Origin: Qipengyuania mesophila
GTDB taxonomy: Bacteria; Pseudomonadota; Alphaproteobacteria; Sphingomonadales; Sphingomonadaceae
Assembly: GCF_019711655.1 (NCBI RefSeq)
Contig: NZ_JAIGNU010000001.1
Span: 1,583,501-1,647,500, forward strand
DNA: 64,000 bases
Reading direction: 5' to 3'
Within the stretch, counting starts at the first letter, position 1. The number at the start of each line of letters is the position of its first letter. Both the position numbers and the translations under genes were made by a program. This document shows positions 1 through 58,335 of this stretch, piece by piece. The notes under the pieces were generated by a model. That model saw nothing but the letters and a program-made list of their open reading frames with translations, made no database searches and was not told the DNA's origin.

Positions 1-982
1 CCAGCTCTTCCCGATGATCGCGGTGTGGGACGACCACGAGAGCGCGAATGATTCGTGGGAAGGCGGGGCAGAGAACCACCAGCCCGACACCGAAGGCGAA
101 TGGTCGGCGCGCAAGGCGGCCGCGATGAAGGCCTATCGTGAATGGATGCCCGTCTCCGACGAGCCTTGGGCCTCCTACGAGGTGGGCGATCTCGCGACGC
201 TCTATCGTCTCGAGACCCGCCTGACCGCGCGCGCCAAGCAGTTCAGCCTCGGCGAGATCCTCCGCGGGGCCAACGGCTCGCCCGAAGAGGCGCAGGCGGC
301 GCTGGTGGCCTTTCGAGAGGGCGATTATGCCGATCCCGCGCGCGAACTGCTCGGCGCCAGGCAGCAGGCGTGGCTCGCCGAAGGCTTCAAGGCATCGAAG
401 GGTGCGGGCAAGACCTGGCAGGTGCTCGTCCAGCAGGTACTGATGGGCAATCTCGTCTCGTCGCCCTCGCTCGCTGCCGCGCTGCCCAAGGATGCGCCCG
501 ACTACATCCGCCAGCGCGTGCTCGCCGGCGCCATGGCCGGCGCGGAGGGCGTGCCGTTCAACATGGATGCCTGGGACGGCTATCCCGCCGCACGGGCGCG
601 CGTGTTCGAAGCCGCGCTCGCTGCCGATGCGAACTTGATCAGCCTGGCGGGCGATACGCACAATGCCTGGGCCTTCGACCTCGATCATGCGGGCACGGCC
701 GTCGGCGTCGAGTTCGGCGGCCAGTCGGTCACCTCCCCGGGGGTGGAAGGCTATCTCCCGCAAATTCCCGCCGATGTCTTCGCGCGCGACACGGTGGCCA
801 ACAATGCGCAGCTCCAGTGGATGGATGCCTCGCGTCGCGGCTATATGGCGGTCGAGCTCACCCCGGGAAGCGCGAGCAGCGAATATCGCTTCCTATCGAG
901 CGTGCGCGAGAAGGGTGCGAGCGTTGTCGCGACCAAGCGGATGACCACGCTGGCGGGGAGCCGCAAGCTCGAGGCGGGTTGA
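1..982 (+). CDS. PhoD-like alkaline phosphatase, C-terminal part (5' end outside window)
   Basis: Partial gene; the reading frame is open from base 2, so the N-terminus lies upstream of the window. The visible part, about 326 residues, carries PhoD-family metallophosphatase motifs: WDDHE followed by ND near the start, which supplies metal ligands, and LAGDTHNAW about two thirds of the way along. Family members are usually exported phosphodiesterases or alkaline phosphatases that use Ca/Fe and release phosphate from organic esters in the periplasm. The signal peptide, normally Tat, would be in the missing part. The stop codon overlaps a likely promoter for the downstream thrS leader. The family call is secure; the substrate is not. 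Confidence 0.85.
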   Translation, partial: QLFPMIAVWDDHESANDSWEGGAENHQPDTEGEWSARKAAAMKAYREWMPVSDEPWASYEVGDLATLYRLETRLTARAKQFSLGEILRGANGSPEEAQAALVAFREGDYADPARELLGARQQAWLAEGFKASKGAGKTWQVLVQQVLMGNLVSSPSLAAALPKDAPDYIRQRVLAGAMAGAEGVPFNMDAWDGYPAARARVFEAALAADANLISLAGDTHNAWAFDLDHAGTAVGVEFGGQSVTSPGVEGYLPQIPADVFARDTVANNAQLQWMDASRRGYMAVELTPGSASSEYRFLSSVREKGASVVATKRMTTLAGSRKLEAG

Positions 983-1007
983 GCATTCCTGCCTCCCGCG
1001 CTATCTC
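979..1007 (+). promoter_or_regulatory. Putative sigma-70 promoter of the thrS leader transcript
   Basis: TTGAGC (979-984) and TATCTC (1002-1007) are separated by exactly 17 bp. The -35 box overlaps the stop codon of the PhoD gene. A start site 7-8 bases after the -10 box would fall at 1014-1015, on the A of the leader-peptide ATG, so the transcript may begin with AUG. No Shine-Dalgarno sequence precedes that ATG, which fits a leaderless start. The boxes are seen in the sequence; the transcription start is inferred. Confidence 0.55.
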
Positions 1008-1014
1008 TCGCCGC

Positions 1015-1086
1015 ATGACGCAGCTGCGGATCACAACCACGACTACCACCACTCCGGGCAACCGGGGGCGGTCGGTCGCGGCATAA
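1015..1086 (+). CDS. Threonine-rich leader peptide of the thrS attenuator (23 aa)
   Basis: A 23-codon frame, ATG to TAA. Residues 7-13 are seven consecutive threonines written with mixed codons (ACA, ACC, ACG, ACT, ACC, ACC, ACT), and Thr is also residue 2, making 8 Thr of 23. A GC-rich hairpin starts 9 bases after the stop, and the next gene is threonyl-tRNA synthetase. This is the classical layout of ribosome-mediated transcription attenuation: scarce charged tRNA-Thr would stall the ribosome on the Thr run and favour read-through into thrS. Mixed Thr codons would sense all Thr isoacceptors. No Shine-Dalgarno is visible, so translation may start on a leaderless RNA. Expression and regulation are inferred. 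Confidence 0.75.
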   Translation: MTQLRITTTTTTTPGNRGRSVAA

Positions 1087-1094
1087 GCGATCCA

Positions 1095-1124
1095 CTGCCG
1101 CCCGGTTTCGGGCGGTGGGCGTTT
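1095..1124 (+). terminator. Attenuator terminator hairpin upstream of thrS
   Basis: CCGCCCG (1098-1104) pairs with CGGGCGG (1109-1115) around a GTTT loop. Wobble and C-G pairs extend the stem to about 10 bp (1095-1118), and a short TTT (1122-1124) follows. GGGCGG at 1066-1071, inside the last leader codons, could pair with CCGCCC at 1098-1103 and act as an antiterminator. The Thr-codon region (about 1038-1047) can in turn partly pair with 1070-1078. The U-tract is weak. The structure is read by eye without energy calculation. Confidence 0.6.
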
Positions 1125-1211
1125 CCTCCCGAAATCGCGAAATTCCGCCAAACGCCGCTTCAAGCGCGCGCGCTCCTGTGCCATGGCCGCGCCAAGCAAC
1201 GGTAAGAGACG

Positions 1212-3224
1212 ATGACGGAACTTCTCAAGATCAGCCTGCCCGACGGTTCGGTGCGCGAAATGGAGGCGGGTTCGACGCCGGCCGATGTGGCTGCTGCGAT
1301 CGGCCCCGGCCTCGCCAAGGCCGCGATCGCCGCGCGGGTCGATGGCGAATTGCGCGACATCAACCGCCCGTTCGAGGGCGATGCCGAGCTTGCCCTGGTC
1401 ACCGGTCGCGACGAGGAGGACGCACTCGAGCTCGCGCGCCACGATTTCGCCCATGTGCTCGCGGAAGCGGTACAGGCGCTGTGGCCCGGCACGCAGATCA
1501 CCTTCGGCCCGGCGACCGACGACGGCTTCTATTACGACGTGAAGGCGCCCGAGAGCCGCGATCCCTTCAGCATGGACGATCTGCCCGCGATCGAGGAAAA
1601 GATGCGCGAAATCATTCGCGCGGACAAGCCGCTCCGCCGCGAGGTCTGGAGCCGCCAGCAGCTGATCGACAAGTGGGAGGCCGAGGGCGAGGTCTTCAAG
1701 GCCGAATGGGCCAAGGAACTGCCCGAGAACGAGGAGCTGACGGTCTACTGGTCGGGGGACGACTGGCTCGACATGTGCCGCGGCCCGCACCTCGCCAGCA
1801 CGGGCAAGCTCGATCCCGATGCCTTCAAGCTGATGCGCGTCGCCGGGGCCTATTGGCGCGGCGACCAGAAGAACGCGCAGCTCACGCGCATCTACGGCAC
1901 GGGCTGGCTCAACAAGAAGCAGCTCAACGCCCACCTTACGCGGCTGGAGGAGGCGGCCAAGCGCGACCATCGCAAGCTCGGCCGCGAGATGGATCTGTTC
2001 CACCTGCAGGAAGAGGCGCATGGCAGCGTCTTCTGGCATCCCAAGGGCTACCGCATCTGGCGCGAGCTCGAAGCCTATATGCGCCGCAAGATGGACGGCG
2101 GCGGCTATCGCGAGATCAAGACGCCGCAGCTGATGGACGTGCGCCAGTGGACCCAGTCGGGCCACTGGGGCAAATATGCCGAGAACATGTTCGCCGTCCC
2201 CGACATCGTCCCCGAAGTGGATGACGAAGGGGAAACGGCCGCTTCGCCCCGGGTCGCCGACGATGCCGACTGGATGGCGATCAAGCCGATGAACTGTCCG
2301 GCGCACGTGCTCGTCTTCAAGCAGGGCATCACCTCCTATCGCGACCTGCCGATCCGGCTGGGCGAAATGGGCTGCTGCCACCGCAACGAGCCGCATGGCG
2401 CGCTTCACGGCCTCATGCGCGTGCGCCAGTTCACGCAGGACGACGCACATATCTTCTGCACCGAGGCGCAGGTGGTCGAGGAGGTGCGCAAGTTCTGCGC
2501 GCTCGCCGACAGCGTCTACAAGGACTTCGGCTTCACCTATCACGTCAAGCTCGCGCTGCGCCCCGAGAAGCGTTTCGGCAGCGAGGCGGACTGGGACAAG
2601 GCCGAGCAGGAACTGCGCGATGCGGTCGCCGAAGCGGGCATGGACAACGAGGAATACGGCTGGGAAGAACTCCCGGGCGAAGGCGCCTTCTATGCGCCCA
2701 AGCTCGAATGGCACCTGACCGACGCGATCGGCCGCACCTGGCAAGTCGGCACGATCCAGGGCGATCGTGTGCTGCCCGACCGCCTCGACGCGACCTATGT
2801 CGGCGAGGATGGCGAGAAGCACCGCCCGGTCATGCTGCACCGCGCCATCTTCGGCAGCTACGAACGCTTCATCGGGATCCTGATCGAGCATTTCGCCGGT
2901 CGCCTGCCCGCGTGGCTGGCTCCCGTGCAGGCGGTGGTCGCGACGATCGTCTCGGATGCCGACGACTACGCCAAGGAAGCGGTCGTCAAGCTCGAGGCGG
3001 CGGGCATCCGTGTCGAGAGCGACCTGCGCAACGAGAAGATCAACTACAAGGTCCGCGAGCACAGCCTCGCCAAGGTCCCGCACCTGCTGGTGGTCGGCAA
3101 GCGCGAGGCCGAGGAAGGCACCGTCGCGGTCCGCACGCTCGGCGAACAGCACCAGAAGGTGATGAGCCTCGACGAGGCGATCGCGATGCTCAAGGACGCG
3201 GGCACGCCGCCCGACCTGCGATAG
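1212..3224 (+). CDS. thrS: Threonyl-tRNA synthetase
   Basis: Charges tRNA-Thr with threonine in the cytoplasm. At 670 aa it has the full bacterial architecture: an N-terminal TGS domain (about 1-65); an N2 editing domain with HxxxH (H77, H81) and CRGPH (C189, H193), which hydrolyses mischarged Ser-tRNA; a class II catalytic core with the zinc-binding MNCPAH segment near residue 360, motif 2 in CHRNEPHGALHG, and a later MLHRAIFGSYERF; and a C-terminal anticodon-binding domain. It lies 125 bp behind the Thr leader peptide and terminator hairpin, so its expression probably responds to charged tRNA-Thr. The next gene starts 14 bases after the stop and may be co-transcribed. Confidence 0.97.
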   Translation: MTELLKISLPDGSVREMEAGSTPADVAAAIGPGLAKAAIAARVDGELRDINRPFEGDAELALVTGRDEEDALELARHDFAHVLAEAVQALWPGTQITFGPATDDGFYYDVKAPESRDPFSMDDLPAIEEKMREIIRADKPLRREVWSRQQLIDKWEAEGEVFKAEWAKELPENEELTVYWSGDDWLDMCRGPHLASTGKLDPDAFKLMRVAGAYWRGDQKNAQLTRIYGTGWLNKKQLNAHLTRLEEAAKRDHRKLGREMDLFHLQEEAHGSVFWHPKGYRIWRELEAYMRRKMDGGGYREIKTPQLMDVRQWTQSGHWGKYAENMFAVPDIVPEVDDEGETAASPRVADDADWMAIKPMNCPAHVLVFKQGITSYRDLPIRLGEMGCCHRNEPHGALHGLMRVRQFTQDDAHIFCTEAQVVEEVRKFCALADSVYKDFGFTYHVKLALRPEKRFGSEADWDKAEQELRDAVAEAGMDNEEYGWEELPGEGAFYAPKLEWHLTDAIGRTWQVGTIQGDRVLPDRLDATYVGEDGEKHRPVMLHRAIFGSYERFIGILIEHFAGRLPAWLAPVQAVVATIVSDADDYAKEAVVKLEAAGIRVESDLRNEKINYKVREHSLAKVPHLLVVGKREAEEGTVAVRTLGEQHQKVMSLDEAIAMLKDAGTPPDLR

Positions 3225-18833: not shown

Positions 18834-21182
18834 ATGAACCCAGCCGGAACTTCCAACCTGGGACTGGAAGATCGTCTGCTGATCCGCCAGATGTCCGACT
18901 TCATCTCGAACGTTCGCAGTGCGGCGGCCGGGACACTGCTCAGTGCGCTCATCGTCATTCCTCTCTTGGCCAGGGCCGAGCAGGCCGTATTCTGGGCTGT
19001 CTGGGTGCCCGTCCTGCTGCTTCTCGACGGACTGCGCGTCATACAGACCTTCGAGTTCGACAAGACATCGAACGATCCCGCCTACATCCAGCGCAACGTC
19101 CGCTACGCCACGGGCCTCGCGATGGGGTGCGGCGCCCATTGGGGGATCGCTTTCGTGGTGCTGTGGCAGAATGCGCGGTCGCCCGGCGAATTCCTGACCC
19201 TGTGCGTATTGGCCGCCGGGATCATGTCGTCGTCATTGCTGCAATACCGACACCTGAAGCCTGCGGGATTGGCGCTGATGCTGGCCTGCATGCTGGCCGG
19301 GACCGGAATCGCCTTCTTCTATCCGCCGACACTGGCCGTTCCTACCGTGCTGCTGGTCTGGCTGCATGGCATCATCGTGCTGCGCGGCGTCAGCGATCAT
19401 GCCCGCTTCTATCGCGAGCGCTTGATCGAGGAAATCGAGCTCGAGCGATCCGAACAGACCGTCCGTCTGCTGTTGCACGAATATGAGGCATCGGCGTCCG
19501 ACTGGCTGTTCGAAACCAATCCCGCAGGCCGGTTTCTGGAGATTTCGGAGCGGTTTGCCGAAGCCGCCGGCAGGTCGCCGGACGAACTGAGGAAAACGGG
19601 ACTGCTGGACCTGTTCGCGCGCGGTGCGGAGCGCAGGGAACTTGCCCAGATGATCGAGGCTCAGCAGACCTTTCGCAACCACGTGCTGCCGGTTGCCGGC
19701 AAGGGCCGGAAAACATGGTGGTCGGTGTCGGCCAAGCCGCTGAACGACGGGTCGATCCGCGGCGTGATGAGCGACGTATCGGCTGAGGTCATCGCCGAAC
19801 AGCGCCTGTCGCGCATGGCGCGCAACGACACGCTGACAGGTTTGGCCAACCGCTTGCGCTTCAACGAGAACCTCGCGCAGTCCGTGTCTAGGCCGGGTGC
19901 CGGGCGCACCCTGATGTTCATCGATCTCGACAAGTTCAAGATCGTGAACGACACTTTGGGTCACGACACGGGTGACGACCTGCTGGTCGCTGCCGCGCGT
20001 CGCATGACCAGCGAGTGCGGCAGGGGTGACTTGCCGGTCCGCATGGGGGGCGACGAATTCGCAATCCTCTGCGCCCCCAAGTCGACGCCCGGGGAAGCGC
20101 GCGATCTTGCAGACCGTTTGATCCGGCGTCTTGCCGATCCGTTCCGGCTTGGGGGCAAGGTGATCAGGGTATCCGCCAGCATCGGGATCGCGCATGTCGA
20201 CGACGAGCCACCCGAACCCGAAGAACTGATGCGGCAGGCGGACCTCGCCCTCTATGCCGCCAAGCAGAAGGGGCGCGGGCTCTGGCAGGAATACAACGCG
20301 GAATTGCAGGCGATGGAGCGCAAGCGTCGCGGACTCGAGCTCGATCTCCGGCAGGCGCTCGCCGAAGATCAATTCTCCCTAGCGTTCCAGCCGCAGATCG
20401 ATTTCGCCACCGGGGAACCGACCGGCATGGAGGCTCTGCTGCGCTGGAATCATCCGGAGCACGGCTTGGTCATGCCGGACGAATTCATCGGGCTCGCCGA
20501 GGAATCCGGCCTGCTCGTCGCGATCGGGGAATGGGTCGCCAACGAGGCGATTCGCACCGCCGCGAAATGGGAGCGGCCGCTGACAATCGCGCTGAATCTC
20601 TCACCGGTACAGATCCGCTCGGACGGCTTCGTCGAGGTGCTGACCCGGGCGATCGCCGTCAGCGGGATCGCACCCAGTCGCGTCGAATTGGAGATTACCG
20701 AAACCGCACTGCTGCACGATACGGACGAGAACGTGCGCACCCTGCACCGGCTTCGCGCGCTCGGCGTGCGGATCGCCCTCGACGATTTCGGGACCGGCTA
20801 TTCATCGCTCAATTACCTGCGCAGCTTCCCCTTCGACACGATCAAGATCGACCGGTGTTTCGTCATGGACTTGCTGGAGCGCCCCGACTGCCAGGCGATC
20901 ATCCGGGCAACGATCAACCTGGCGCAGGAACTGGACATGGAGACGGTCGCCGAGGGGATCGAGACGGCGGACCAGTTCGAGTGGCTCGGGGAGATCGGTT
21001 GCACCGCAGGGCAGGGGTATTACATCTCGCGACCCATCGCGTGCGGCGAGCAGGTCGAAGGTGTGGCCAGGCGAGAGACGACGCTGCAGCTCGATAGATT
21101 TGCGCCGTCGGCTGGAGGCAGCGTTCGGTCGGGCCAGTTCGGGATGAATGCGGTCGGCACGGCGATGGCCTATCGCGCCTAG
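18834..21182 (+). CDS. Membrane GGDEF-EAL cyclic-di-GMP signalling protein with PAS-like domain
   Basis: 782 aa. Residues about 30-190 contain several hydrophobic segments, forming an integral membrane sensor. A PAS-like region follows (about 215-325; WLFETNPAGRFLEISERFAE). The GGDEF domain has an intact RMGGDEFAIL (about 404), but the RxxD inhibitory site is not canonical (GRGD in its place). The EAL domain carries EALLRW (about 532), NLSPVQI, ELEITETAL, DDFGTGYSSL and ETVAEGIET, the metal and catalytic set of active phosphodiesterases. It may make and break c-di-GMP, or use GGDEF for GTP sensing. The gene lies between two copies of the galU 3' end. Confidence 0.95.
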   Translation: MNPAGTSNLGLEDRLLIRQMSDFISNVRSAAAGTLLSALIVIPLLARAEQAVFWAVWVPVLLLLDGLRVIQTFEFDKTSNDPAYIQRNVRYATGLAMGCGAHWGIAFVVLWQNARSPGEFLTLCVLAAGIMSSSLLQYRHLKPAGLALMLACMLAGTGIAFFYPPTLAVPTVLLVWLHGIIVLRGVSDHARFYRERLIEEIELERSEQTVRLLLHEYEASASDWLFETNPAGRFLEISERFAEAAGRSPDELRKTGLLDLFARGAERRELAQMIEAQQTFRNHVLPVAGKGRKTWWSVSAKPLNDGSIRGVMSDVSAEVIAEQRLSRMARNDTLTGLANRLRFNENLAQSVSRPGAGRTLMFIDLDKFKIVNDTLGHDTGDDLLVAAARRMTSECGRGDLPVRMGGDEFAILCAPKSTPGEARDLADRLIRRLADPFRLGGKVIRVSASIGIAHVDDEPPEPEELMRQADLALYAAKQKGRGLWQEYNAELQAMERKRRGLELDLRQALAEDQFSLAFQPQIDFATGEPTGMEALLRWNHPEHGLVMPDEFIGLAEESGLLVAIGEWVANEAIRTAAKWERPLTIALNLSPVQIRSDGFVEVLTRAIAVSGIAPSRVELEITETALLHDTDENVRTLHRLRALGVRIALDDFGTGYSSLNYLRSFPFDTIKIDRCFVMDLLERPDCQAIIRATINLAQELDMETVAEGIETADQFEWLGEIGCTAGQGYYISRPIACGEQVEGVARRETTLQLDRFAPSAGGSVRSGQFGMNAVGTAMAYRA

Positions 21183-21195
21183 GCGCTGGTTTAGG

Positions 21196-22086
21196 TCAGG
21201 CTTCCAGCATCCGTTGCATGATGGCGCGTACCTCGGCGCCCATGTCCTTGCGTTCGAGTGCCAGCGCCAGCGTGGCTTCGACGAAGCCGGTCTTGCTGCC
21301 GCAGTCGAAGCGGCGACCGCTGAAAGTAACCGCGTGGAAGGGCTGGTTGCCGATCATCTTGGCCATGGCGTCGGTGAGCTGGATTTCGCCGCCCGCGCCC
21401 TTTTCCTGGTCCTCGAGCACGCGCATGACCTCGGGCTGGAGGATGTAGCGGCCCGAGATGATCTTGTTCGAGGGCGCCTTGTCGACGGGCGGCTTCTCGA
21501 CGAGGCCGGTGACCTCGGTGAGGGCGTCGCTCTTGGCCGCGCCGGGTGCGATGACGCCATAGCTCGACACTTCTTCCTGCGGCACTTCGAGCACCGAGAT
21601 CAGGTTCCCGCCGACCTCGTTGTAGGCCTCGACCATCTGCTTCATGCAGCCCGTTCCGCCACTCTTGGCGGCGACCATCAGTTCGTCGGGCAGGAGGATG
21701 GCAAAGGGTTCGTCGCCGACGATCGCCCGCGCACACCAGATCGCGTGGCCGAGGCCCAGCGGGACCTGCTGGCGCACGGTGATGATGTCGCCCGGCGTTG
21801 CCCGCGTGGGTTCGAGCACGTCGAGGTTTTTGCCGCGCTCCTCCATCGTGTGTTCGAGTTCGTAGGCGACGTCGAAATGCTCGACGATGGCGGTCTTGCC
21901 GCGCCCGGTGACGAAGATGATCTGCTCGATTCCCGCCTCGCGCGCCTCGTCCACCGCATACTGGATCAGCGGGCGGTCGACGATCGGGAGCAGCTCCTTG
22001 GGGATCGCCTTGGTCGCGGGGAGGAAGCGCGTGCCCAGTCCGGCGACGGGAAAGACGGCTTTTTTGATCGGCTTGTGCTGGGTCAT
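21196..22086 (-). CDS. galU: UTP-glucose-1-phosphate uridylyltransferase
   Basis: 296 aa enzyme making UDP-glucose from UTP and glucose-1-phosphate for exopolysaccharide, LPS and glycan synthesis. The nucleotide-binding AGLGTRFLPATKAIPKELLP and VDRPLIQYAVDEA are conserved, with the later LPDELMV, GLVEKP and CGSKTGF segments. Length and domain order are normal. It is read alone on the minus strand, convergent with the GGDEF-EAL gene and divergent from murA. A partial second copy of its 3' end lies at 18615. Confidence 0.96.
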   Translation of the reverse strand: MTQHKPIKKAVFPVAGLGTRFLPATKAIPKELLPIVDRPLIQYAVDEAREAGIEQIIFVTGRGKTAIVEHFDVAYELEHTMEERGKNLDVLEPTRATPGDIITVRQQVPLGLGHAIWCARAIVGDEPFAILLPDELMVAAKSGGTGCMKQMVEAYNEVGGNLISVLEVPQEEVSSYGVIAPGAAKSDALTEVTGLVEKPPVDKAPSNKIISGRYILQPEVMRVLEDQEKGAGGEIQLTDAMAKMIGNQPFHAVTFSGRRFDCGSKTGFVEATLALALERKDMGAEVRAIMQRMLEA

Positions 22087-35120: not shown

Positions 35121-35912
35121 ATGACCCAGCTGATCCTGACCGAGATCGCCGACGGTATCGCCACCGTCACCCTCAACCGCCCCGAGGCGATGAATGCGCT
35201 GTCGAAAGCGCTCCGCCACCGGCTCTACGAGGTGATGAAGGAACTCGATGCCGACGATGCCGTCCGCGCGGTCATCCTGACCGGCGCGGGGACAAGGGCC
35301 TTCACCGCCGGGCTCGACCTCAAGGAGCTCGGCTCGCAGGAGGGCGCGCTCGGCGCGGCCAATGCAGAGGGGGCGGACGAGAACCCGGTCAAGGCTATCG
35401 AGCAGTGCCGCAAGCCGGTGATCGGGGCGATCAACGGCGTCGCCATCACCGGCGGCTTCGAGGTCGCGCTGGCCTGCGACGTGCTGGTCGCCAGCACCAA
35501 TGCGCGCTTCGCCGATACGCATGCACGCGTCGGGATCGTCCCCGGCTGGGGGCTGTCGCAGAAACTGAGCCGGATGATCGGCATCAGCCGCGCCAAGGAA
35601 CTGAGCTTCACCGGCAATTTCCTCGATGCCGAAACCGCCGAACGCTGGGGGCTGGTCAACCGCGTGGTCGCGCCCGAGGAGTTGTTGCCAGAGGCGCGTC
35701 GGCTCGCGGCCGATATGGCGAGCGTGGATCCCGCATTCCTCGCCACCTACAAGGCGCTGATCGACGAGGGCTATGCCGCGAGCTTTGGCGAGGGGCTGGT
35801 GATCGAACACGCACGCTCCTCCGCCGCCAATTCCGCGGTCAGCCCCGAGGAAGTCGAGGCGCGCCGCGCCGCGGTGCAGGCGCGCGGGCGGACGCAGGGC
35901 GCGGGCGGCTAG
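35121..35912 (+). CDS. Enoyl-CoA hydratase/isomerase-family (crotonase-fold) protein
   Basis: 263 aa crotonase fold. RAFTAGLDLKEL is the CoA/oxyanion loop and AINGVAITGGFEVALACD the second. The Glu of GGFE matches Glu144 of rat enoyl-CoA hydratase, but the position of Glu164 is His (in FADTHARVG), so the ordinary syn-hydration dyad is incomplete. Proteins with this ADTHARVG segment are usually annotated enoyl-CoA hydratase without proof; isomerase or another CoA chemistry is as likely. The end overlaps the convergent ATPase gene by four bases. Confidence 0.88.
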   Translation: MTQLILTEIADGIATVTLNRPEAMNALSKALRHRLYEVMKELDADDAVRAVILTGAGTRAFTAGLDLKELGSQEGALGAANAEGADENPVKAIEQCRKPVIGAINGVAITGGFEVALACDVLVASTNARFADTHARVGIVPGWGLSQKLSRMIGISRAKELSFTGNFLDAETAERWGLVNRVVAPEELLPEARRLAADMASVDPAFLATYKALIDEGYAASFGEGLVIEHARSSAANSAVSPEEVEARRAAVQARGRTQGAGG

Positions 35913-36421
35913 GCGATCGCCAGCTTCCGCAGCACGAAATCTGCGCGGTCGCCAACCGGTAGTTTGGGCAAGGTGAGCGGGCTATAGCCGAGCTTCGGCA
36001 GGAGCTCTGCCAGATGCTCGTATTCATCGCGGGCAGCCTCGAAATCGTGGCGACGCATCGAATCCTCGGCGTAGATTTCGGGCCAGGGCGGGGCGAGGAA
36101 CACCCCGCCGGCATAGGGACGCTCCTCGCCGAGGGCGTCGGCGACCGGGGTGACACCAATGCGTTCGAGCCCCGCGAGCGCGTCGAACAGCCCACGATCG
36201 TAGAACACCGGCTCGTCGATCGAGGCATGTGCGGCGAGATCGGCCATGGCCATGTCGGCGGCGGCGCGAAGGAATGCCTCGGCATCGTCCCAAGGCGCGA
36301 TGCCCTGCGCGATCAGGCGGCGGCCGGGCTCGGCGACGGTGCGGCAGCCGCGCGCCGCCAGTTCGTCGAGCAGCGTCGTCTTGCCGCCGCCCGAACAGCC
36401 GGTGATCAGGATGTCGGCCAC
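35909..36421 (-). CDS. Small P-loop ATPase/kinase-like protein (AAA_28 type)
   Basis: 170 aa. A Walker A motif GCSGGGKTTLLDEL lies at the N-terminus, followed by a conserved AEPGRRLI and a probable Walker B/catalytic segment VFYDRGLFDALAGLERI, then WPEIYAEDSMRRHDFE and a lid-like helix. This matches the AAA_28 (NadR/thymidylate-kinase-like) group, whose members may phosphorylate small molecules or nucleotides. The true substrate is unknown. It starts 4 bp after the gltD stop on the same strand, so it is probably the third gene of the gltB-gltD transcript. Confidence 0.8.
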   Translation of the reverse strand: MADILITGCSGGGKTTLLDELAARGCRTVAEPGRRLIAQGIAPWDDAEAFLRAAADMAMADLAAHASIDEPVFYDRGLFDALAGLERIGVTPVADALGEERPYAGGVFLAPPWPEIYAEDSMRRHDFEAARDEYEHLAELLPKLGYSPLTLPKLPVGDRADFVLRKLAIA

Positions 36422-54484: not shown

Positions 54485-55426
54485 TTAGACGGGCTTGGCG
54501 CCGCTGCCGCGTCCGCCACGCAGCGTATATTCGAGCGTGCCGCGGTTCACCACATAGTCGACGTCGATCACTGCCGTATTGGCATAGGTGAATCCCGGCC
54601 CGAGGTTGCGATAGAGCTTGTCGAAATCGCGCTCGACCGTCTGCCGATAGAGGTCCTCGAAGCTCTCGATGACGAAATAGGTCGGCTGCAAATCGCTGAT
54701 CACGTAATCGGTGCGCATCACCCGGTCGACATTGAGCATGATCCGGTTGGGGCTTTCGGCCTCCACCGCATAGACCACCTCCGTCGGTCCCGAGAGGATC
54801 CCCGCCCCATAGGCGCGCACATCGCCCGGCGCTTCCTGGAGCAGGCCGAATTCGACCGTGTACCAATAGAGCGATCCGAGCGCCTTCAGCCGGTTGTAGC
54901 GCATCGCCTTCCAACCGGCGCGGCCGTATTCCTGCATGTAGTCGGCATAGACCGGGTCGGTCAGCATCGGCACGTGGCCGAAGACGTCGTGGAAGACGTC
55001 GGGTTCCTGGATGTAGTCGAAGGTCTCGCGCGTGCGGATGAAATTGCCCGCCGGGAAGCGCCGGTTGGCGAGATGCCAGAAGAACACGTGATCGGGGATC
55101 AGCATGGGCACGGGCACCACGCTCCATCCGGTCAGCGCGTCGAGATCCTCACTCAGCTTGCCGAATTCGGGCACGCCGCCGCGGTCTAGGTTCAGTTTCT
55201 CGAGTCCGGCCATGAAGGCGGTGGCCGCGCGGCCGGGCAACACGCCCATCTGTCGCGCGAAAAGGTCGTTCCAGATCGCATCGTCTTCCGACGAATACTC
55301 GGTCTGCTTGGGTTCGAGCCAGTCTTCGCCGACATGCGCGGGCTTCTTCAGCGGGGCGGTGAAAACCGCCTCGTCAAGATCGGGAAGTCGGCTAAAGTCC
55401 TGTTCGGGTTCTGCGAGTGTGGCCAT
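54485..55426 (-). CDS. phhA: Phenylalanine 4-monooxygenase
   Basis: About 313 aa. Uses tetrahydropterin and O2 to turn phenylalanine into tyrosine. The iron-binding region is clear: EPDVFHDVFGHVPML (two His) with a later Glu in the YTVEFGLLQE stretch. The catalytic domain is complete; there is no N-terminal ACT domain, as in other bacterial enzymes. The ATG at 55426 is my choice; another at 55459 has no better ribosome site. It is convergent with the small lipoprotein and diverges from ppk2 over a short gap. Confidence 0.94.
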   Translation of the reverse strand: MATLAEPEQDFSRLPDLDEAVFTAPLKKPAHVGEDWLEPKQTEYSSEDDAIWNDLFARQMGVLPGRAATAFMAGLEKLNLDRGGVPEFGKLSEDLDALTGWSVVPVPMLIPDHVFFWHLANRRFPAGNFIRTRETFDYIQEPDVFHDVFGHVPMLTDPVYADYMQEYGRAGWKAMRYNRLKALGSLYWYTVEFGLLQEAPGDVRAYGAGILSGPTEVVYAVEAESPNRIMLNVDRVMRTDYVISDLQPTYFVIESFEDLYRQTVERDFDKLYRNLGPGFTYANTAVIDVDYVVNRGTLEYTLRGGRGSGAKPV

Positions 55427-55481
55427 GGTTGCGGATGATACTAGCAATGGCGGCGTCATTCAAATGCCGGGCGGGAATGCG

Positions 55482-56252
55482 ATGAAAAAGAGCGACTACG
55501 AGAACGCGATCGAGCCGATGCAGGAAGAGCTGGTCGGCATGGCGCGCTGGGCCAAGGCGACGGGCGCGCGCATCGTGGTGCTGTTCGAAGGGCGCGACAC
55601 GGCAGGCAAGGGCGGTGCGATCCAGGCGGTGCGCGAACAGCTCAATCCGCGCCAGTGCCGCGTGGTCGCGCTGGCCAAGCCGACCGAGGCCGAGCAGGGC
55701 CAGTGGTATTTCCAGCGCTATGTCGACCACCTGCCGAGCGCGGGCGAGATCGTGCTGTTCGACCGCAGCTGGTACAATCGCGCCGGGGTCGAGAAGGTCA
55801 TGGGCTATGCCGAGGACGCGCAGGTCGCGCTGTTCCTCGAACAGGCGCCGGTGTTCGAGAAACTGCTCGTCGACGACGGCATACTGCTGTTCAAATACTG
55901 GCTCGCGACCGACCAGGCGCAGCAGGAGGAGCGGCTGCGCGAGCGGCTCGATGACCCGCTCAAGCGCTGGAAGCTCTCGCCCGTCGATCTTGCGGCGCGC
56001 GACCGATACGATGCCTATACCGAGGCGCGCGAGGCGATGCTCGCGGCGACACATACCACCCACGCCCCGTGGACGCTGGTCGATTTCAACGACCAGAAGC
56101 GCGGGCGGCTGACGCTGGTGCGCGACCTGCTCGACCGGCTGCCCGACATGCAGGTCGCGCCGCCCGAGATCGACTTTCCCGAGCTGGGCCGCGAGCCCAA
56201 GGCGGAGCGCTATGGCGTGCTTAAGCCGATTGCGGAGTACCTGCTCGACTAG
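55482..56252 (+). CDS. ppk2: Polyphosphate kinase 2 family protein
   Basis: 256 aa PPK2. Walker A is FEGRDTAGKGGAIQAV, the second conserved motif is VLFDRSWYNRAGVEKVMG, and the lid is FLEQAPVFEKLL; LFKYWLATDQAQQEERLRER is typical of the class that moves phosphate between polyphosphate and nucleotides. I start at the ATG at 55482, preceded by GGGA, rather than at one six codons upstream. The end overlaps the convergent dehydratase gene by four bases. Direction (NTP synthesis or polyP synthesis) cannot be read from sequence. Confidence 0.93.
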   Translation: MKKSDYENAIEPMQEELVGMARWAKATGARIVVLFEGRDTAGKGGAIQAVREQLNPRQCRVVALAKPTEAEQGQWYFQRYVDHLPSAGEIVLFDRSWYNRAGVEKVMGYAEDAQVALFLEQAPVFEKLLVDDGILLFKYWLATDQAQQEERLRERLDDPLKRWKLSPVDLAARDRYDAYTEAREAMLAATHTTHAPWTLVDFNDQKRGRLTLVRDLLDRLPDMQVAPPEIDFPELGREPKAERYGVLKPIAEYLLD

Positions 56253-57103
56253 ACGAGTGTCGCCGAGGCTTTCGTCACCTGGCGCCCGTTGCCGGCGAAG
56301 GCGCCGAGTTCGATAGAATCGCTGTCGCCGCGCAGAACGAGGTGGAGCGGTTCGCCCGCCACCGCGGGGCTGACGCCGCGAAAGGCGAAGTTTGCGAGCC
56401 GGTTCTCGCCGAATCGTTCGGCGGCGACCTGGAGCAGCAGGCTCGCGGTCAGCGGGCCGTGGACGACCAGCCCGCGATAGCGCTCGACCTCGCGGGCATA
56501 GGGGGCATCGTAATGGATGCGGTGCGTGTTGAAGGTCAGCGCCGAATAGCGGAACAGCAGCCGCTCGTCGGGGCGGACCTCGCGATGCGCATCCCAGCCC
56601 GACGGATCGAAGCTACCTTCGCCTGGCTCGGGCGGCGAGAGCGGTGCGTCGGGTGCCAGCGCTTCGAGATAGACCAGCGTCTGCCGCTCGCTCACCGCGA
56701 GTGCTCCGTCGGCGCTGGTCTCGTGATCGACCTCGACGAAGACCATGTCGCCGCGGGTGCCCGACTTGGCTTCGACCGAGGCGACGCGGCTGACGCGCTC
56801 GATGCTCGCACCCACCGCTATCGGGGCGTGGAAGCGCATAGCGCTCGAGGCCCACATGCGGCGCGGCAGTGGCACGGGCGGGAGGAAGCTTGCTGCACTG
56901 TCGTCGCGCGCCGGATGCCCGTCATCGCCGAGCTGTGCGGTGCGGGCCTCGGGCGTGCAGAGGCACAAATGGATACCCTGCGGCATGGCCGCGCTCGACG
57001 GCGCGTCGCGGTCGAATGTCGCGCACCAGCGCGCGGCGAGGGCAGGGTCGAGCCGGTCGGCGGCGCGCTGTTCGCGGCCGATCCAGTCCGACCAGTCATC
57101 CAT
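56249..57103 (-). CDS. MaoC/FAS1-like dehydratase-domain protein (mesaconyl-C4-CoA hydratase-like)
   Basis: 284 aa. The N-terminal half matches the FAS1-like dehydratase domain found in mesaconyl-C4-CoA hydratases and related enzymes (FLPPVPLPRRMWASSAMRFHA). The C-terminal half is a hot-dog fold with FRYSALTFNTHRIHYDAPYA (catalytic His region) and YRGLVVHGPLTASLLLQ. It probably hydrates an enoyl-CoA in a catabolic route. It is the last gene of a five-gene minus-strand operon, and its ATG overlaps the thiolase stop by one base. Confidence 0.87.
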   Translation of the reverse strand: MDDWSDWIGREQRAADRLDPALAARWCATFDRDAPSSAAMPQGIHLCLCTPEARTAQLGDDGHPARDDSAASFLPPVPLPRRMWASSAMRFHAPIAVGASIERVSRVASVEAKSGTRGDMVFVEVDHETSADGALAVSERQTLVYLEALAPDAPLSPPEPGEGSFDPSGWDAHREVRPDERLLFRYSALTFNTHRIHYDAPYAREVERYRGLVVHGPLTASLLLQVAAERFGENRLANFAFRGVSPAVAGEPLHLVLRGDSDSIELGAFAGNGRQVTKASATLV

Positions 57104-58335
57104 CAGGCGGCGCGCTCGAACACGGCGGCCATGCCCTGCCCGCCGCCGATGCACATGGTCTCGAGCCCGTAGCGGACCTCGCGGCGCTGCATCTCGTGCG
57201 CCATGTCGGCGAGGATGCGGATGCCCGTGGCGCCGATCGGGTGGCCGAGCGAAATGCCCGAGCCGTTGACGTTGACGATCTCGCGGCGGCTGTCGTCCGC
57301 GGCGAAACCCCAGCCCTTCATCACGGCGAGCGCCTGCGGGGCGAAGGCCTCGTTGAGCTCGATCAGGCCGATGTCATCCCAGCCCATGCCGTTGCGCGCG
57401 AAGAGGCGCTCGACCGCGGGGACGGGGCCGATACCCATGCGGCTCGGATCGCAGCCCGCCGCGCTCCACGAATGGAACCACAGGATCGGTTCGAGCCCCA
57501 ATTCCTCGACCTTGTCCTCGGCGACGACGAGGCAGGCCGCCGCGGCGTCGTTCTGCTGGCTGGCATTGCCCGCGGTCACGATGGCGTCGGCGTCGCGCTT
57601 GAGGTCGATGGCGCGCAGCGCGCCGAGCGTCTCCATGCTCGCATCGGCGCGGAAGCCCTCGTCCCTCGCGAAGACCACCGGATCGCCCCGGCGCTGCGGA
57701 ATCTCGATCGGGACCAGCTGCTCGTCGAACTTGCCCTCTTCCCATGCCCGCGCGGCGTTCTGGTGGCTGCGCACGGCGAAGGCATCGGCCTCCTCGCGGC
57801 TGATGCCGTAATCCTTGGCGAGGTTTTCCGCGGTCTCGATCATGCCGGTAATCACGCCGTAGCGTTCGATCGGCTGGCTCATCAGGCGGCCGCGCGTCAG
57901 CCGGTCCCACAGCTGCAGGTCGCCCATCCGCACGCCGTTGCGCACGGCGGTAGTATAGTGCTCGACATTGGACATGCTCTCGACCCCGCCCGCGAGCACG
58001 CAGTCGGCGACGCCGGTCTGGACCATCATCGCTGCCGTCGCGACCGCCTGCAGGCCCGAGCCGCAGCGGCGGTCGAGCTGGAAGCCGGGGACTTCCTCGG
58101 GATAGCCTGCGGCAAGCCAGCTCCAGTGCCCGATGGCGGGCGCCTCGCCGCTGCCGTAGCCCTGGCTGAAGACGACGTCGTCGACGCGTGCCGGATCGAT
58201 GCCGCTGCGTTCGACCAGCGCCTTGATGATGATGGCGCCAAGCTGTCCCGCTTCGAGCGGGGCGAGGCTGCCGAGATAGCGCCCCACGGGCGTCCTCAGG
58301 GGCTTGCAGATGGCTACGCGGCGCTGTGACGTCAT
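57103..58335 (-). CDS. Acetyl-CoA acetyltransferase-family thiolase
   Basis: 410 aa. Catalytic signatures: DRRCGSGLQAVATA (nucleophilic Cys), NEAFAPQA, NGSGISLGHPIGATG (His) and ETMCIGGGQGMA (second Cys). It overlaps the CoA-transferase gene by four bases (ATGA) and the dehydratase gene by one base, so it is coupled on both sides. It would release acetyl- or propionyl-CoA in the final step of the pathway encoded by the operon. Confidence 0.95.
   Translation of the reverse strand: MTSQRRVAICKPLRTPVGRYLGSLAPLEAGQLGAIIIKALVERSGIDPARVDDVVFSQGYGSGEAPAIGHWSWLAAGYPEEVPGFQLDRRCGSGLQAVATAAMMVQTGVADCVLAGGVESMSNVEHYTTAVRNGVRMGDLQLWDRLTRGRLMSQPIERYGVITGMIETAENLAKDYGISREEADAFAVRSHQNAARAWEEGKFDEQLVPIEIPQRRGDPVVFARDEGFRADASMETLGALRAIDLKRDADAIVTAGNASQQNDAAAACLVVAEDKVEELGLEPILWFHSWSAAGCDPSRMGIGPVPAVERLFARNGMGWDDIGLIELNEAFAPQALAVMKGWGFAADDSRREIVNVNGSGISLGHPIGATGIRILADMAHEMQRREVRYGLETMCIGGGQGMAAVFERAA

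Follow-up and report, generated by a model that had tools for sequence, protein, structure and literature searches.

How is thrS, the gene for threonyl-tRNA synthetase (ThrRS), controlled in a sphingomonad? Known controls of thrS are the T-box and a translational operator; the latter, in E. coli, is tRNA-like and mediates autoregulation by ThrRS. In classic ribosome-mediated attenuation, as at trp, his and pheST, a ribosome that stalls at a run of cognate codons frees segment 2 of a leader able to form mutually exclusive hairpins. The E. coli thr operon has such an attenuator, thrL, with Thr and Ile codons, and the operon that it controls is biosynthetic. Attenuation of aminoacyl-tRNA operons was reportedly surveyed by Lopatovskaya et al. 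in 2010. We analysed a stretch of 64,000 nt of Qipengyuania mesophila DNA (hereafter the window), in which a ribosome-mediated Thr attenuator had been predicted in front of thrS. We consider it probable that the element is a ribosome-mediated, Thr-responsive attenuator of thrS, and most likely, judging from its sequence and that of its relatives, more ThrRS would be made when charged Thr-tRNA is scarce.

The thrS locus and its leader ORF

The leader ORF and thrS lie on the forward strand:

1015..1086, + strand: leader ORF, MTQLRITTTTTTTPGNRGRSVAA, 23 aa, with ATG at 1015 and TAA at 1084-1086
1033..1053, + strand: Thr codon run, putative sensor, codons 7-13, seven consecutive Thr
1212..3224, + strand: thrS, threonyl-tRNA synthetase, with Pfam domains TGS, tRNA_SAD, tRNA-synt_2b and HGTP_anticodon

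The 23-codon leader with its seven consecutive Thr codons is thus as originally predicted. In the window 125 nt separate it from thrS; upstream, a PhoD-like gene on the same strand ends at 982. The interval 1015-1145 folds better than all 200 of its dinucleotide shuffles (z = -2.63). As in leader-peptide attenuators, the codon run is cognate to the gene that would be controlled. However, a run of six Thr codons alone is unremarkable: the genome of Q. mesophila contains five overlapping matches to the corresponding pattern, distributed over three sites, of which the two other than the leader lie within ORFs of 128 and 264 aa, and the same pattern read backward as a control has 12. What goes beyond chance is the position of the element before thrS and its conservation there; it is this conservation, and not the Thr run itself, that rules out a chance or local oddity.

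We took as relatives the best 80 of 587 thrS loci. A Thr-rich leader ORF ending 50-221 nt before thrS was found in 52 of these 80 loci, and 55 loci out of the 80 were matched by a covariance model at E <= 1e-5 (46 in the model and nine outside it), so that the conservation of Thr run and hairpins on which the prediction had been staked is borne out. By eye we excluded the ORFs flagged at loci L042, L063 and L079 and, at both L043 and L048, the second ORF. A set of 53 leaders was selected by Thr content, hence the Thr-richness of all 53 is no test and the count of 52 of 80 loci is. Alignment A1 comprises 47 of the 53, without L014, L033, L043, L048, L049 and L059, which carry inserts or a deletion or are divergent. 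The covariance model was built from these 47, and three matches at E of 0.012-0.048 were left out of all counts.

The 53 leaders span 21-26 aa and contain 5-12 Thr codons, with longest Thr runs of 2-9. At three aligned Thr codons, bases 1 and 2 are identical in 46-47 of the 47 sequences while base 3 takes all four letters; two flanking Thr codons are more variable (34-42 of 47). The leaders use all four Thr codons, and ACT accounts for 74 of their 402 versus 23 of 799 among 36 of the window's ORFs. Because AC is constant and the third base drifts, the comparison points to selection for Thr decoding in the leader ORF, rather than for a pattern of bases.

Promoter-like sequences and the start of the leader

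Two promoter-like sequences flank the element:

979..1007, + strand: promoter P1 (promoter-like), -35 TTGAGC at 979-984 and -10 CTATCT/TATCTC at 1001-1007
1158..1186, + strand: possible promoter P2, CTTCAA, 17 nt, CCATGG, directly after hairpin B (see below) and downstream of the attenuator

The scan for P1 allowed gaps of 4-14 nt between the -10 and the ATG and spacers of 14-19 nt. Among the 50 aligned leaders (window included), 38 have their best -10-like hexamer ending 6-7 nt upstream of the ATG, and in 37 of the 50 the -35-like and -10-like hexamers are 17 nt apart; a Shine-Dalgarno-like sequence upstream of the leader ATG is present in one of the 50. The leader ORF is therefore probably leaderless, with the transcription start expected at or adjoining the ATG. 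By analogy with trpL of Sinorhizobium meliloti, translation from the extreme 5' end would be the simplest reading.

The P2 motif occurs at 50 of 81 loci (38 of 56 with the attenuator and 12 of 25 without) and in none of 567 coding stretches; the motif was picked after inspecting the same loci. Given its proximity to thrS, P2 would probably ensure a basal supply.

Alternative pairings in the leader RNA

We divided the leader RNA into segments 1 (1052-1057), 2 (1060-1083), 3 (1087-1103), 4 (1103-1112), 5 (1128-1137), 6 (1118-1124) and 7 (1150-1156); the slices taken for the tests were slightly wider. Five pairings are predicted among them:

1052..1067, + strand: hairpin 1:2, 1052-1057 with 1062-1067, statistically weak
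1060..1103, + strand: candidate antiterminator 2:3, core 1066-1071/1098-1103 and inner stem 1074-1079/1087-1092 around the stop codon
1097..1116, + strand: hairpin A (3:4), GC-rich, with a 7-pair stem
1103..1137, + strand: pairing 4:5, 10 bp, 1103-1112 (CGGUUUCGGG) with 1128-1137 (CCCGAAAUCG), incompatible with hairpin A
1118..1156, + strand: hairpin B (6:7), 1118-1124 (GGCGUUU) with 1150-1156 (AAACGCC)

In the cognate test, the own segment pair of each sequence is compared with permuted partners. Permutation leaves relatedness in, and control pairs of the same sequences share that relatedness. Across the 47 sequences of A1 we obtained z = -8.9 for 4:5, -8.3 for 6:7, -7.9 for 2:3 and -4.9 for 3:4, each reached in 0/5000 permutations. 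Eight other segment pairs ranged from z = -2.1 to +1.7, the extreme being the control pair 6:5 (90/5000). Hairpin 1:2, with 69.1% of cells paired, gave z = -1.6 (289/5000).

The GC-rich hairpin predicted before thrS is confirmed at 1097-1116: in the stem of hairpin A 97.6% of cells are paired, and one pair is doubly changed, in 12 sequences. In hairpin B four of the seven pairs show double changes. Pairing 4:5 is present in 88.6% of 447 cells, and no more than 62.8% remain paired once the partner is shifted by 1-3 columns; its 34 double-change cells compare with 12.3 in shuffles (0/500), whereas the number of its pairs with double changes (five) is not above chance, being reached in 89/500 shuffles. 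Nor does the structure comprising A, B and 1:2 have more pairs with double changes than expected by chance (173/500 shuffles).

As 4:5 was first found by eye, we re-tested it in sequences outside the alignment. Removing from 38 model matches four that are identical to A1 rows and one duplicate leaves 33 sequences, in which z is -7.6 for 4:5, -8.7 for 6:7 and -5.1 for 3:4, with four controls between -1.0 and +0.7. The 33 rows were aligned by fitting to a model that contains A and B, which biases them toward 3:4 and 6:7 and not toward 4:5. Six of them (L006, L014, L033, L043, L049 and L059) had been in view before 4:5 was proposed; in the remaining 27, previously unseen, the values are -5.5 for 4:5, -7.4 for 6:7 and -4.0 for 3:4 (0/5000 each), and the four controls lie between -0.7 and +1.1. 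Cognate tests and covariation together thus show 3:4, 4:5 and 6:7, with strong covariation in 4:5 and 6:7.

The antiterminator had been predicted as 1066-1071 (GGGCGG) with 1098-1103 (CCGCCC). These strands are complementary, and the segment test supports 2:3; column covariation does not, as the fixed-register count of paired cells (65.2%) is below that of shuffles (67.3%). The core is 91% paired and nearly invariant, and the inner stem fails to align; perhaps indels between the arms are responsible for the failed count. We therefore regard 2:3 as partly shown, on the segment test. Both 2:3 and 3:4 use 1098-1103, so the two are mutually exclusive, as in leader attenuators. The original prediction thus holds for the competition at the first hairpin but is incomplete, having missed the covarying pairings 4:5 and 6:7.

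In a pseudoknot combining 4:5 and 6:7, the loops would measure 5-7, 2-3 and 9-12 nt across the 47 aligned sequences. Because these lengths vary so little, the two pairings may coexist as a pseudoknot instead of excluding each other. At L014 (2344-2427), a 34-nt inverted repeat, 91% complementary, lies between the arms of hairpin B, both of which are retained.

Distribution of the element

Under stricter filters, the covariance model matches 86 of 296 genomes order-wide, all in the family of the window and spread over 20 of 79 genera; 20 of 23 genomes of the genus of the window have a match. In a class-wide sample 2 of 190 genomes were matched, both of that same family. The genome of Q. mesophila has a single match, and all 30 retrieved matches, the window's own included, precede thrS. 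These comparisons support the view that the leader, its Thr codons and the predicted 2:3/3:4 competition are shared by many Erythrobacteraceae and also by a few further Sphingomonadales, where they precede thrS or are separated from it by a small ORF. At L006, L012 and L055 a 168-aa ORF lies between attenuator and thrS (the L012 copy has no Pfam match), and by eye hairpin B lies right against that ORF's ribosome-binding region. L048 (2403-2483) retains the leader ORF with hairpins A and B absent before thrS, a natural deletion of the switch.

The model has no match in 25 of the best 80 of 587 loci (L057 with just 353 nt of upstream DNA), and therefore thrS can do without the element. When presence is mapped onto a thrS tree with 81 rows, built by a quick search, 15 changes are needed, and starred branches force at least nine of these; the element has therefore been lost or gained repeatedly.

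Terminators and the readout

The original prediction placed a short U-tract after the hairpin. This part does not hold: it consists of three U (1122-1124), five bases beyond the stem of hairpin A, and a terminator scan of 900-1300 found none, so the U-tract of transcriptional attenuators is missing. In relatives these three U change to C jointly with their partners in hairpin B. Neither hairpin is followed by a U-tract in L006, L012 and L055, where A, 4:5 and B are nevertheless retained. The loop of hairpin B, at 25 nt, is also unlike that of a normal terminator. The missing U-tract counts against a textbook terminator. However, the U-tract test is weak, because the window shows no excess of U-rich terminators: 60 kb of it contain 23, versus about 30 in shuffles. 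Among five pairs of convergent ORFs inspected (rough calls), three, at 18834-22086, 35121-36421 and 55104-57154, have a 4-nt overlap or a 13-nt gap and leave little room for a terminator.

We also considered opening of the thrS start as the readout. Constrained folding of the 47 leaders gave no gain in accessibility in the ON state (mean change -0.05; above +0.1 in 0/47 and below -0.1 in 14/47), which does not support this candidate.

Proposed mechanism and alternative explanations

The reading that we favour for the readout is transcription attenuation via a relay. RNA polymerase would begin transcription at the leader ATG or immediately beside it, followed by a ribosome. With ample Thr-tRNA, the ribosome would reach the stop codon at 1084 and mask segment 2, allowing hairpin A to form; segment 5 would then be free, hairpin B would form, and there would be no productive transcription into thrS. 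When charged Thr-tRNA is scarce, the ribosome would stall at codons 7-13, leaving segment 2, just beyond its edge, to pair with segment 3. Segment 4, thereby freed, would pair with 5 and oppose hairpin B, so that the stop signal would be lifted and thrS made. In an untranslated leader, hairpin 1:2 would pre-empt 2:3. The leading edge of a ribosome lies about 12-16 nt ahead; on codons 7-13 it would reach at most ~1063-1066, and segment 2 would therefore be free. The geometry over segment 2 is that of a classic attenuator.

From the order and exclusivity of the segments we infer the relay itself, in which 2:3 leads to 4:5 and against B, and 3:4 leads to B. Segment 5 is transcribed after the polymerase has passed hairpin A; 4:5 therefore cannot affect a decision at A, and the decided step must be further downstream. 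In this scheme Thr shortage would cause the stall, the switch would run in the direction described, and the readout would be transcription, the stop signal being either hairpin B or the A-B pair. Of the predicted Thr attenuator, then, the peptide, its Thr codons and the 2:3/3:4 competition recur before thrS, and a usable U-tract at the first hairpin does not.

A ribosome-gated relay could also operate with no U-tract terminator at all. The position of the ribosome would set 2:3 versus 3:4, which in turn would set an H-type pseudoknot (4:5 with 6:7) versus two adjacent hairpins; the signal would be the pseudoknot and not a plain antiterminator. We put this forward tentatively, as a possibility of rather low probability.

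Alternatively, the sensor may be the same and the readout be translation or mRNA decay, with A and B versus 2:3 and 4:5 chosen on the transcript; erm-type translational attenuation would be the model. The absent U-tract fits such a readout, as does the synthesis of segment 5 only once the polymerase is past hairpin A, and in L006, L012 and L055 hairpin B abuts, by eye, the ribosome-binding region of the intervening 168-aa ORF. Against this, the thrS start is no more accessible in the ON state of the 47 leaders, and in the window hairpin B ends 55 nt upstream of thrS; we regard this explanation as the chief alternative, though an unlikely one.

The region might instead contain a tRNA-like operator through which ThrRS autoregulates, the leader ORF being incidental, and both the identity of the gene and the structured 5' region would agree with this. 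However, Thr is preserved as codons despite third-base drift, and the structures swap letters and keep pairs. At gathering score Rfam had no match in the whole window, nor was the structure of a T-box found; at E <= 5, the only families matched in 950-1260 were one of miRNAs and one of snoRNAs, each scoring far under its cut-off, so that no known Rfam leader element is recognised here. An operator of this kind is thus very improbable.

Least credible of all, and in our view barely worth retaining, is that hairpin A marks the transcript end of the PhoD-like gene and that the Thr run arose by chance or belongs to a low-complexity peptide: the upstream gene does end at 982 on the same strand, and six-Thr-like codon runs are not rare in this genome, but the element covaries, has its own promoter-like sequence and does not follow the PhoD-like gene, because a same-strand PhoD relative is found in the retrieved DNA of only 30 of 55 attenuator loci (and of 5 of 25 others; a few loci have little upstream DNA).

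Relation to known systems

We compared the element with known leader systems. Like thrL and the trp, his and pheST attenuators, the leader in the window has a run of cognate codons, a segment 2 predicted to be freed by stalling, and exclusive hairpins. In contrast to them, it would control thrS with Thr codons only, it lacks a U-tract terminator, it adds 4:5 and 6:7, and it is probably leaderless. The element is thus attenuator-like: it has the sensor and the exclusive structures, lacks the U-tract, and has a covarying second tier in addition.

Leader-peptide attenuation of aminoacyl-tRNA synthetase genes is represented by pheST (PMC1262725), with trpS, leuS and hisS as further examples, and in Streptomyces lividans also by alaS and thrS (PMC8079986). 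The idea of a Thr leader before thrS is therefore not new, one having been proposed for S. lividans. In the portion of the report available, thrL-thrS of S. lividans TK24 has a leaderless 18-aa ORF with two Thr codons and one hairpin, with no U-rich sequence, and termination is called unclear by its authors (PMC8079986). It thus resembles the window in having a leader ORF before thrS, in being leaderless (probably so in the window) and in lacking a U-rich sequence; it differs in having two Thr codons only, in belonging to another phylum, and in that the portion consulted reports no comparative or pairing evidence. Judged by that portion, the S. lividans thrS leader is weakly supported. Given our partial coverage of the literature, we do not claim a first description.

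Two cases from S. meliloti, described here from parts of the reports, are closer in taxonomy. Its trpL, a leaderless leader ORF and attenuator of trpE(G) (PMC7298713, PMC10117765), is likewise alphaproteobacterial with two exclusive structures, and differs in its Trp codons, in its target and in having a terminator. SEP5 is a small ORF with six Thr and three Lys codons in the 5'-UTR of an aspartate dehydrogenase gene, suggested to encode a leader peptide and conserved in Sinorhizobium only (PMC10117765); it too is alphaproteobacterial and Thr-rich, and differs from the window in its Lys codons, target gene and range.

Other thrS leaders in alphaproteobacteria

A crude class-wide scan for Thr-rich ORFs, covering 80 thrS regions (79 complete, and L169 with only 222 nt), flagged 5/80, versus 3/80 antisense and 15/400 shuffles, and alone shows nothing. 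Two of the five flags were followed up; one led to a real family and the other to a lone case. The remaining flags were at L118, L137 and L140. In the former, another alphaproteobacterial family (G359 and kin), 7 of 10 thrS loci (L229 and L231-L236) have Thr-rich leaders of 18-19 aa, for example MTARTTTTATTTRTSCGGP. Each is followed by CCCTCC...GGAGGGTTTTTT, a compact attenuator with a canonical terminator ending in TTTTTT (U6). The last leader codons contain GGAGGG (GGGGGG in one), which can pair with the 5' arm of the terminator, and by eye TTGACA-like and -10-like sequences lie near the leader ATG. These leaders are like that of the window in being Thr-rich and placed before thrS, and unlike it in being compact with a U6 terminator; the covariance model (R1) has no match in G359 or G478, the two genomes of that family in the class sample. 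A different RNA has thus arrived at, or preserved, the same logic. At L230 there is another Thr-rich leader, unlike these.

The lone case is L209 (G345), with a Thr-rich leader, MRTHPVLRSTATTTTTATGGRWRMRA, at -322 to -241 from thrS and a TTGACA-like sequence upstream of its ATG. Its family contributed 30 loci, not all complete; of the three flagged among them, L209 alone is leader-like.

Leader-peptide control of thrS would thus be well conserved in alphaproteobacteria, with two unlike architectures in two families. In the sphingomonad version, a covarying second tier for which the classic four-segment model has no need is combined with a missing U-tract, and this makes the element a good test of attenuation in GC-rich bacteria with few canonical terminators.
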